Origin: Candidatus Epulonipiscium sp.
GTDB taxonomy: Bacteria > Bacillota > Clostridia > Lachnospirales > JAAYNZ01
NCBI GenBank assembly: GCA_012524135.1
Contig: JAAYSE010000091.1
Span: forward strand, 1 to 34,253
Direction: 5' to 3'
DNA: 34,253 nucleotides
The notes beneath the pieces were generated by a model. The model did not search any database and was not told the origin of the DNA. It saw only the letters and a list, made by a program, of their open reading frames with translations. Shown here piece by piece: positions 23,098-34,253 of this stretch (positions are counted from its first letter, which is position 1; every line of letters starts with the position of its first letter). Made by a program: the position numbers and the translations under genes.

Positions 23098-23131
23098 TTT
23101 GACAAAAAATGGATGATATCTTTGCTATAAT
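23098..23131 (+). promoter_or_regulatory. spoIIGA promoter with 21-bp spacing and overlapping 0A-like box
   Basis: A perfect TTGACA (23099-23104) and a perfect TATAAT (23126-23131) are 21 bases apart, too long for ordinary SigA use. The Bacillus spoIIG promoter has the same oddity (22 bp) and is switched on by Spo0A~P. The -35 lies in TTTGACA, the reverse complement of TGTCAAA, one mismatch from the 0A-box TGTCGAA. Confidence 0.7.
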
Positions 23132-23201
23132 AAGCATATAGAAAAAATAAATAGAATATGTATAAATGAAAGAGTTTTCATAAGAAAGGTAGAAGAGGGG
23201 A

Positions 23202-31784: not shown

Positions 31785-31838
31785 ATGTTATTGTTATTTA
31801 AAAAACAAGTATTTCGACAAGTTTTACAAATAAGTTGA
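31785..31838 (+). CDS. Possible 17-aa leader peptide in the topA-codY gap
   Basis: An ATG at 31785 follows a strong AAAGGTGG (31773-31780) and opens 17 codons (MLLLFKKQVFRQVLQIS). Its TGA stop lies inside the left arm of the hairpin at 31832-31850. A ribosome on this frame would cover the left arm, as in translation-coupled attenuators. No amino-acid run beyond the Leu-rich start is seen. It may be a chance ORF or the remnant of a lost gene. Confidence 0.4.
   Translation: MLLLFKKQVFRQVLQIS
31813..31819 (-). promoter_or_regulatory. Exact Spo0A box (0A box) heptamer
   Basis: TTCGACA here is the reverse complement of TGTCGAA, the Spo0A-binding core known from Bacillus. It is inside the topA-codY spacer, within the short leader-like ORF. 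A single heptamer match can occur by chance. Confidence 0.4.
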
Positions 31839-31992: not shown

Positions 31993-32766
31993 ATGTCAAT
32001 GGAATTATTGGAAAAAACAAGGAAATTAAATCGGTTATTACAAAAAACAGGATCACAACCTGTTATTTTTAATGATATTTGTGATGTGTTGAAAGAGATT
32101 ATTTCATCACATGCAGTAGTGATTAGCAAAAAAGGTAAGGTTCTTGGAGTTTCCTTGGAAGATGAAGAAGATTCATTATTTGACCCTAGAGAATTAGAAG
32201 TAGGAAATTATATTTATTCACCTTTGAATGAACAGTTATTAAACAATAATGAAACAAAAGAAAATGTAGATTTGAAAGAGTTTACATTACCTATAGAAGT
32301 TTTTCAAACGTACAATGCAATGATTATTCCTATTAGTGCAGGACGAGAAAGGTTTGGAACTTTATTGCTATATAGAGAAGGAGAAGACCAATACGAAACA
32401 CAGGATATTATTATTGGAGAATACGGAGCTACGGTAGTAGGATTAGAAATTCTAAGATCGATTAATGAAGAAAATGCAAAAGAAATTCGAAAGACTACAG
32501 TAGTTAAATCGGCGATAGGAACTTTATCATATTCTGAATTAGAAGCTATCTTACATATCTTTGAAGAATTAGATGGAACAGAAGGCTTATTAGTAGCAAG
32601 TAAGATTGCTGATCGAGTGGGAATTACTCGTTCTGTTATTGTAAATGCACTTCGTAAATTTGAAAGTGCAGGAGTGATTGAGTCTCGATCATTAGGAATG
32701 AAAGGAACCTATATTAAAGTTTTAAATGACGTATTATTGGAAGAATTAGATAAATTAAGACAATAA
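31993..32766 (+). CDS. codY: GTP-sensing global transcriptional regulator CodY (257 aa)
   Basis: CodY senses GTP and branched-chain amino acids, and represses nutrient-stress genes, competence and motility in many Firmicutes. The N-terminal start MELLEKTRKLNRLLQ and GAF ligand domain (to about residue 155) are followed by a winged helix with the conserved ASKIADRVGITRSVIVNALRK recognition region (about 202-222). GMKGTYIKVLN is near the end. The length is normal. The ATG follows GGAGGAAA. It is a single-gene unit between a hairpin upstream and a two-tier hairpin downstream. Confidence 0.97.
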   Translation: MSMELLEKTRKLNRLLQKTGSQPVIFNDICDVLKEIISSHAVVISKKGKVLGVSLEDEEDSLFDPRELEVGNYIYSPLNEQLLNNNETKENVDLKEFTLPIEVFQTYNAMIIPISAGRERFGTLLLYREGEDQYETQDIIIGEYGATVVGLEILRSINEENAKEIRKTTVVKSAIGTLSYSELEAILHIFEELDGTEGLLVASKIADRVGITRSVIVNALRKFESAGVIESRSLGMKGTYIKVLNDVLLEELDKLRQ

Positions 32767-32780
32767 GAAATAGAATGACA

Positions 32781-32842
32781 ATAAAAACAATAAAGATAAT
32801 ACAAAAAAAAGCACATATATGTGCTTCTTTTATTGTTTTTAT
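32781..32842 (+). terminator. Nested hairpin terminator after codY
   Basis: The inner perfect palindrome AAGCACATA/TATGTGCTT (32809-32826) is followed by CTTTTATTGTTTTT. Outer 14-base arms at 32781-32794 and 32829-32842 are also perfect complements and enclose it. Confidence 0.85.
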
Positions 32843-32867
32843 AGTCTAAAAGTCTTATATAGAATAC

Positions 32868-32896
32868 TTGCCAAATATTGTAGATATATATATAAT
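32868..32896 (+). promoter_or_regulatory. Flagellar operon promoter P1
   Basis: TTGCCA (32868-32873), 17-base spacer, perfect TATAAT (32891-32896). Expected start is near 32903, about 150 bases before flgB. Confidence 0.75.
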
Positions 32897-32918
32897 AAAT
32901 ACAGAATTAGATAAAAGA

Positions 32919-32944
32919 TGTCGAAAAAAAGGATGGTTGTCGAG
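32919..32944 (+). promoter_or_regulatory. Two tandem Spo0A-type boxes upstream of flgB
   Basis: TGTCGAA (32919-32925) is an exact 0A heptamer and continues as an A-run; TGTCGAG (32938-32944) differs at one base. They are in the same orientation, 19 bases apart. They lie just downstream of P1 and about 85-108 bases before the expected start of P2. Confidence 0.55.
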
Positions 32945-32991
32945 AAAGAAAGTATTATGTTAAAAAAAGTAGATCATCCGTGTAGAAAAGA

Positions 32992-33020
32992 TTTACAAAG
33001 CATTAAAAAAAGTATACAAT
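32992..33020 (+). promoter_or_regulatory. Flagellar operon promoter P2
   Basis: TTTACA (32992-32997), 17-base spacer, TACAAT (33015-33020). The predicted start near 33027 leaves a short leader with AGAGGAG before flgB. Confidence 0.7.
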
Positions 33021-33054: not shown

Positions 33055-33432
33055 ATGATGATGGAAAGGATATTTAATTACAGCAATATTTTAAAAACAG
33101 CACTAGATGCTACTTATCTTAGGGATAAAGTAATTAGTCAAAATGTGGCTAATGTAGATACCCCAGGATATAAAAAGAAGAGTGTTGCATTTGAAGAGCA
33201 GTTACAAAAAGCGTTAGATTCTCATAAGCGGTCTAGTCAAATTAATCTTTCTACTCTAAAACCACAGGTTATTCAACCTATGAATGGTATGAGTTATCGA
33301 ATGGATCAAAACAACGTTGATATTGATGTAGAAACAGTAGAACAAACAAAGAATTATTTACGATATCAAGCGTTAGTGGATCAAGTTACTTATGATATGA
33401 GACGTTTTAAAACAGTGTTAAATGCAAGATAG
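33055..33432 (+). CDS. flgB: Flagellar basal body rod protein FlgB (125 aa)
   Basis: FlgB is a proximal-rod component. The conserved N-terminal helix and motif (LDATYLRDKVISQNVANVDTPGYK in parts) is intact, followed by the NNVDIDVETVEQTKN-type C-terminal half. Length is normal for the family. Three ATGs in a row follow AGAGGAG; the first (33055) has the best spacing. It is the first gene of a flgB-flgC-fliE operon, driven by two tandem promoters that bracket 0A-type boxes. Confidence 0.96.
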   Translation: MMMERIFNYSNILKTALDATYLRDKVISQNVANVDTPGYKKKSVAFEEQLQKALDSHKRSSQINLSTLKPQVIQPMNGMSYRMDQNNVDIDVETVEQTKNYLRYQALVDQVTYDMRRFKTVLNAR

Positions 33433-33478: not shown

Positions 33479-33916
33479 ATGTCTTTTTTTAGTACGATGA
33501 ATGTTAATGCCAGTGGTCTTACGATGCAACGATTACGAATGGATATTATTTCTCAAAATATTGCGAATGTAGAAACAACAAAAACATCAGAAGGAACTCC
33601 TTATCGGAGAAAAACTTTATTAATCGAAGAACAAAAAGAACCTTTTCAATCCTTTTTACAAAAAGCCCAAGGAGAATATTCGATAGGAAAAGGAGTAAAA
33701 GTATCTAAAATTGTAGAAGATCAAAGCCCTTTCCGTAAAGTATATAATCCCGGACATCCAGAAGCAGATGAGCAAGGATATGTATCTATGCCCAATGTCA
33801 ATATTATTGAAGAAATGGTAAATTTACTTTCTGCTAATCGGGCTTATGAAGCCAATGTTGTTTCTCTTAATACATCTAAAACGATAGCAATGAAAGCATT
33901 AGAAATTGGGAAATAA
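33479..33916 (+). CDS. flgC: Flagellar basal body rod protein FlgC (145 aa)
   Basis: FlgC is the second proximal-rod protein. It shows the N-terminal GLTMQRLRMDIISQNIANVETT helix, a variable middle, VYNPGHPEADEQGYVSMPNVNI and the C-terminal rod/hook motif EMVNLLSANRAYEANV. Length and layout match the family. AAGGAGGTG lies 8 bases before the ATG. It follows flgB by 46 bases and precedes fliE by 35, without a hairpin between. Confidence 0.96.
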   Translation: MSFFSTMNVNASGLTMQRLRMDIISQNIANVETTKTSEGTPYRRKTLLIEEQKEPFQSFLQKAQGEYSIGKGVKVSKIVEDQSPFRKVYNPGHPEADEQGYVSMPNVNIIEEMVNLLSANRAYEANVVSLNTSKTIAMKALEIGK

Positions 33917-33951: not shown

Positions 33952-34253
33952 ATGGATATTTGTTCAGTTAACCTTCAAACTAGGTTACAAGAAATTCAAA
34001 ATAAAAATACAAAAACGCAACAAGTAAATGAATCAGAAAATGATTTTGATGGTTTTTATAAAAATGCATTAAAAATGTGGAATAAAACGAATGAATTTCA
34101 AAAAGAAGCAGAACATATGGCTTTAGAATTTGCTGCTGGAAGATTCGATAATTTTCATGCCTTGACTATTGCACAAGCAAAAGCCAATGTTTCCCTTGAA
34201 TATACTGTGCAGGTTCGAAATCAGATATTAGATGCTTATCGTGAAATCATGCG
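33952..34253 (+). CDS. fliE: Flagellar hook-basal body protein FliE, 3' end cut by window
   Basis: FliE joins the MS ring to the rod. One hundred codons are readable from ATG 33952, behind AGGAGGAAAGGG. The conserved parts are FYKNALKMWNKTNEFQKEAE and DNFHALTIAQAKANVSLEY followed by VRNQILDAYREIM. FliE usually ends a few residues after EIMRM, so almost the whole protein is present. It is the third gene of the flagellar operon, which continues beyond the window. Confidence 0.94.
   Translation, partial: MDICSVNLQTRLQEIQNKNTKTQQVNESENDFDGFYKNALKMWNKTNEFQKEAEHMALEFAAGRFDNFHALTIAQAKANVSLEYTVQVRNQILDAYREIM

Follow-up and report, generated by a model that had tools for sequence, protein, structure and literature searches.

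The window, the whole 34,253-nt stretch of DNA that was analyzed, carries codY followed by flgB, flgC, and fliE. The gap of about 288 to 291 bases between codY and flgB holds two predicted promoters, P1 and P2, and between them two heptamers of the 0A-box type, both on the plus strand and 19 bp apart from start to start (Table 1). A preliminary description of this DNA had reported the same two words between two promoters, and its coordinates, strand, and spacing were exact. It had also called both boxes exact, which holds for box 1; box 2 ends in G, though it retains G2, C4, and G5, the bases contacted by Spo0A (PMC3485338).

Table 1. Features of the codY-flgB region, with positions in the window
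Feature	Position	Strand	Remarks
codY	31993..32766	+	Upstream neighbor; NF003170 332 bits, PF06018/PF08222 over cutoff
Terminator-like hairpin, bidirectional, after codY	32804..32831	both	From scan; 12-pair stem on minus, 7-pair stem on plus
Short element tatagtctaaaagtctt	32841..32857		~26 nt upstream of P1 -35; from aligned spacers
Predicted promoter P1, TTGCCA-17-TATAAT	32868..32896	+	Sigma-70 type, match 11/12
0A box 1, TGTCGAA	32919..32925	+	Exact; starts ~22 to 23 nt past P1 -10
0A-like box 2, TGTCGAG	32938..32944	+	Starts 42 nt past last base of P1 -10
Predicted promoter P2, TTTACA-17-TACAAT	32992..33020	+	Sigma-70 type, match 10/12
flgB	33055..33432	+	TIGR01396 94.5 bits, over cutoff
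flgC	33479..33916	+	TIGR01395 172 bits, over cutoff
fliE	33952..34251	+	TIGR00205 and PF02049 over cutoff; runs past window end

Both promoters named in the preliminary description were recovered. A promoter scan gave sites not above shuffles (9 versus 11.8), but P1 and P2 are supported as promoters by their conservation in the sister genome G001, whose CodY and FlgB are 90% and 71% identical, respectively. There, 29 of 35 positions are identical at P1 (32868 to 32902) and 24 of 32 at P2 (32990 to 33021). A P1-type promoter is also found in the f24 genomes, and a P2-like GATTTAC...TAAAAT is found in L084 and L145. If transcription from P1 starts 7 nt after the -10 element, box 1 would lie at about +17 to +23 and box 2 at about +36 to +42 of the transcript, which places both within the first tens of transcribed bases, as expected of a roadblock.

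The short element upstream of P1 has a counterpart, catagtcctaaagactt, at equal distance in G001; the versions of this genus read tagtctaaaagtctta and tagtcctaaagactta, and f24 and f7 genomes have TAGGWCWAATT. The conserved element stands at a fixed ~26 nt upstream of the flgB P1 -35 (the window, L084, L085, L087, L101, and L145 to L147). Searches for other regulatory signals gave the following results. At flgB, an Rfam search of the window and 16 related loci detected neither a known leader RNA nor a c-di-GMP riboswitch, and folding of the P1 leader was unremarkable (z of -1.6). The CodY box AATTTTCWGAAAATT, with up to 3 mismatches allowed, was not found in the codY-flgB locus. The SigD-type promoter pattern matched 12 times compared to 9.75 expected, and none of these matches was at P1 or P2.

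Box quality and expectation by chance

The boxes were scored with a matrix derived from 0A boxes of this order, ten in all, of which eight belong to abrB and two to spo0A of f21 genomes. Box 1 reached 16.0 of a possible 16.6 bits, corresponding to a p of ~0.0025 per spacer when the codY-flgB spacer was shuffled, and its flank is A-rich. The terminal G of box 2 limited its score to 7.2 bits. Single TGTCGAR words occur in the window at chance level (4 seen, 3.67 expected). A pattern search of the 1.95-Mb genome for two TGTCGAR words on the same strand with a gap of 5 to 25 nt found this pair once, and the reversed-pattern control gave 0. By analytic estimate, however, 0.12 to 0.34 such pairs are expected genome-wide, and the pair by itself could therefore be due to chance; box 1, given where it lies downstream of P1, carries more weight. 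Among the matches listed in the genome-wide search, which took in nearly all of 106 copies of TGTCGAA, 17 of 101 are intergenic, compared to 9.5% of sampled bases that lie between genes, which hints at a retention of the intergenic copies.

Other copies of the word were seen as well. A further exact TGTCGAA lies on the minus strand between topA and codY (window 31813 to 31819), ~175 nt before codY; it is not kept in G001. Two intergenic copies precede a dnaG-like gene by 52 nt (G000:C88 1562, L184) and a prs-like gene by 70 nt (G000:C49 7646, L170), and these genes are possible Spo0A targets.

Spo0A and the box at the AbrB-family gene

The genome encodes a cognate, intact Spo0A of 266 aa (L001) with receiver and Spo0A_C domains (TIGR02875, 412 bits; PF08769, 158 bits), the HTH of which reads PSRVERAIRHAIEVAWSRG. 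With spoIIAA, spoIIGA, sigE, and sigG present in the genome, and spoIIGA-sigE-sigG carried by the window itself, the organism is, by its gene content, a spore-former. TGTCGAA was sought as a positive control at the spo0A, spoIIGA, and spoIIAA genes of this genome and was found at none of them; the region upstream of spoIIAA is interrupted by a contig end. In the spoIIGA promoter (window 23100 to 23133), TTGACA and TATAAT are separated by a 21-nt spacer, and TGTCAAA, overlapping the -35 element, replaces TGTCGAA. The motif TTTTGACAAAA at this promoter recurs in f1, f7, and f21. In its spacing it resembles the spoIIG promoter of Bacillus subtilis, which is long-spaced and activated by Spo0A.

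A canonical box stands 15 nt past the -10 element of a gene for an 86-aa AbrB-family protein (PF04014, lp_hng_hel_AbrB) in this genome. Of 13 genomes of the order, 11, among them sister G001, have the same layout at the AbrB-family gene, a promoter followed by TGTCGAA, and the promoter is strongly conserved (TTGACTTTTATTNNTAATTATGGTAYNCT; L234 = G000:C8, L235 to L243, and L245). Most likely, then, the Spo0A of this order uses a canonical box placed shortly after a promoter, in the manner of B. subtilis abrB. A Spo0A-abrB switch shared by the whole order has a good candidate in the AbrB-family gene. Because relatives keep this layout, a box shortly past P1 is credible as a site of repression.

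Farther from the gene, ~265 to 320 nt before abrB and by a divergent SpmA-like gene, lies another box cluster (L150, ~1175 to 1191; L236, L237, and L243). It reads TGTCGAAAAAAGTCGAA here, whereas in G059, G060, and G048 it consists of two TGTCGAA words separated by 8 nt. Tandem boxes upstream of abrB are spaced 8 to 10 bp apart, compared to 19 bp for the flgB pair, a difference that speaks against the latter.

Conservation of the flgB boxes

The codY-flgB neighborhood is widespread, so that its spacers can be compared, and 42 of them were examined. An alignment of the flgB upstream regions had been proposed in the preliminary description as a check on the boxes, and its outcome went against them: G001 keeps P1 and P2 and yet has neither box, reading TGTCAAG at the position of box 1 and TTATCGA at that of box 2. 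The G-to-A change in TGTCAAG falls on a contacted base, G5, whose mutation to A lowered the affinity of Clostridium difficile Spo0A ~10-fold (PMC3485338). This test has power because the abrB box is kept in G001; the flgB boxes fail the same test. An exact TGTCGAA was found in three of the 42 spacers, namely, that of the window and those of two f21 genomes, which represent two lineages with the word at different positions (in f21, directly ahead of a flgB promoter's -35 element). No close relative among these spacers has it. A Spo0A switch at flgB would therefore be at best peculiar to this species, as far as the aligned spacers indicate.

These observations bear on whether the boxes have any function. 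They may be chance words, or the decaying remnant of a site, in an unconstrained spacer between conserved promoters, with no direct regulation of flgB by Spo0A. We regard this as a serious possibility, though short of probable. First, only 31 of 89 positions between the promoters match in G001, in contrast to the well-preserved P1 and P2. Second, single words in the window are at chance level, and 0.12 to 0.34 pairs are expected genome-wide. Third, the sister genome has kept its abrB box and not the flgB boxes. On the other hand, box 1 is near-perfect, with an A-rich flank and a low p value, and, like the abrB box, it follows a promoter; the intergenic excess of TGTCGAA over the share of bases between genes also hints that intergenic copies are retained.

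Some trends across the 42 spacers could instead suggest that Spo0A controls flgB directly throughout the order by means of shifting or degenerate boxes, the window being one version. Such versions would be the AGTCGAWT just past P1 of f24 genomes, the TGTCGAA that precedes the -35 element in f21, and the TGTCAAG of G001. AGTCGA[AT] occurs 8 to 10 nt after the P1 -10 in three of the four f24 genera, TGTCAAA-like sites occur at the spoIIG promoters of the order, and GTCGAA (with GTCGAWTT) is enriched on the plus strand of the spacers, GTCGAA being found 6 times compared to 1.5 in shuffles, with 0 of 200 shuffles having as many. However, the enrichment is not leaned on here, because the GT of the f24 sites is part of a start region, TATAAT..aaATArgGT, that is also seen in Lachnospiraceae spacers without the CGA, and because most f24 sites have nonsignificant matrix scores. 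Moreover, f24 has A in place of the initial T of the box, and genomes within one genus are not independent. We consider order-wide control of this kind very unlikely.

Possible role of the boxes at flgB

The proposal that Spo0A controls this operon, as put forward in the preliminary description, gains from the intact Spo0A, the sporulation genes, the abrB precedent, and a layout like that of spo0A; it loses from the failure of G001 to keep the boxes. If the boxes function at all, repression of P1 is most likely their role. We consider the chances about even that they form a species-specific operator through which Spo0A~P represses P1 directly. Box 1 would be the principal site, assisted by box 2. 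Spo0A~P bound ~17 to 42 nt into the transcript would impede RNA polymerase that initiates at P1, either in promoter escape or in elongation, and a rise in Spo0A~P would turn down the flgB-flgC-fliE operon. Transcription from P2, whose predicted start lies past the boxes, would be hindered weakly or not at all. Swimming may in this way be shut off as the cell commits to sporulation. Here, Spo0A binding, P1 repression, and the timing and direction of control are what we infer from the arrangement of the sites.

The boxes might instead act from upstream on P2, with bound Spo0A~P serving as an activator or a supercoil barrier and the operon switching promoter. Their distance to the predicted P2 start is ~83 to 108 nt. 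In B. subtilis, the output of Ps is changed by the 0A boxes that lie upstream of it (PMC12090719), and the TGTCGAA of the f21 genomes, directly preceding a flgB -35 element, is at the usual place for an activator. However, the boxes end ~47 to 66 nt before the P2 -35 (32992), which is too distant for direct contact of the spoIIG type, P2 is kept in a sister genome without any box, and turning flagella on at sporulation would be the biologically wrong sense. We found no specific support for the activation of P2 that the preliminary description had allowed for, and we consider this reading very unlikely. P2 is probably not dependent on the boxes, because it is predicted to start beyond them and G001, which lacks them, has kept it.

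Direct repression of P1 has parallels in known systems. In B. subtilis, the 0A boxes between the Pv and Ps promoters of spo0A, and those downstream of abrB, are thought to be roadblocks (PMC12090719). The flgB spacer likewise has tandem promoters with 0A boxes between them, and a box position past the first promoter fits a roadblock. However, Ps is a SigH promoter, the gene there is spo0A, and the effects were measured, whereas here both promoters appear to be of the SigA type, the operon is flagellar, and the effects are predicted. The abrB case offers the same word on the same strand, 15 nt past the -10 at the abrB-like gene of this genome compared to ~22 nt at flgB P1, but conservation across the order is seen for the abrB box and not for the flgB boxes.

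A link between Spo0A and motility is itself not new. A spo0A mutant of C. difficile is hyperflagellate with increased flgB mRNA, and a consensus box was not found immediately before the flagellar structural genes of that species (PMC4028888). In solventogenic clostridia, 0A boxes have been proposed before motility operons (PMC3395874). The link proposed here is the same, with Spo0A lowering flgB and other flagellar genes. In contrast to C. difficile, where no consensus box was found at that place, the window has an exact one, as read from its DNA. Repression of flagella by Spo0A, direct or indirect, is already known; what distinguishes the present case is an exact box at the flgB operon of one species and its absence from the sister.

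One may go further and suppose that a recently gained two-box operator, specific to this species, silences P1 and leaves P2 untouched. Swimming would then give way to sporulation through a direct and graded switch that is absent from the sister species, and this would be a rewiring within one genus. We offer this tentatively and consider it somewhat unlikely. If the operator is real, it would tie sporulation commitment directly to motility in an anaerobe, where the link is usually thought to be indirect. The two sister genomes would then be a pair having the same promoters with and without an operator, and the abrB box would serve as a positive control within the species.
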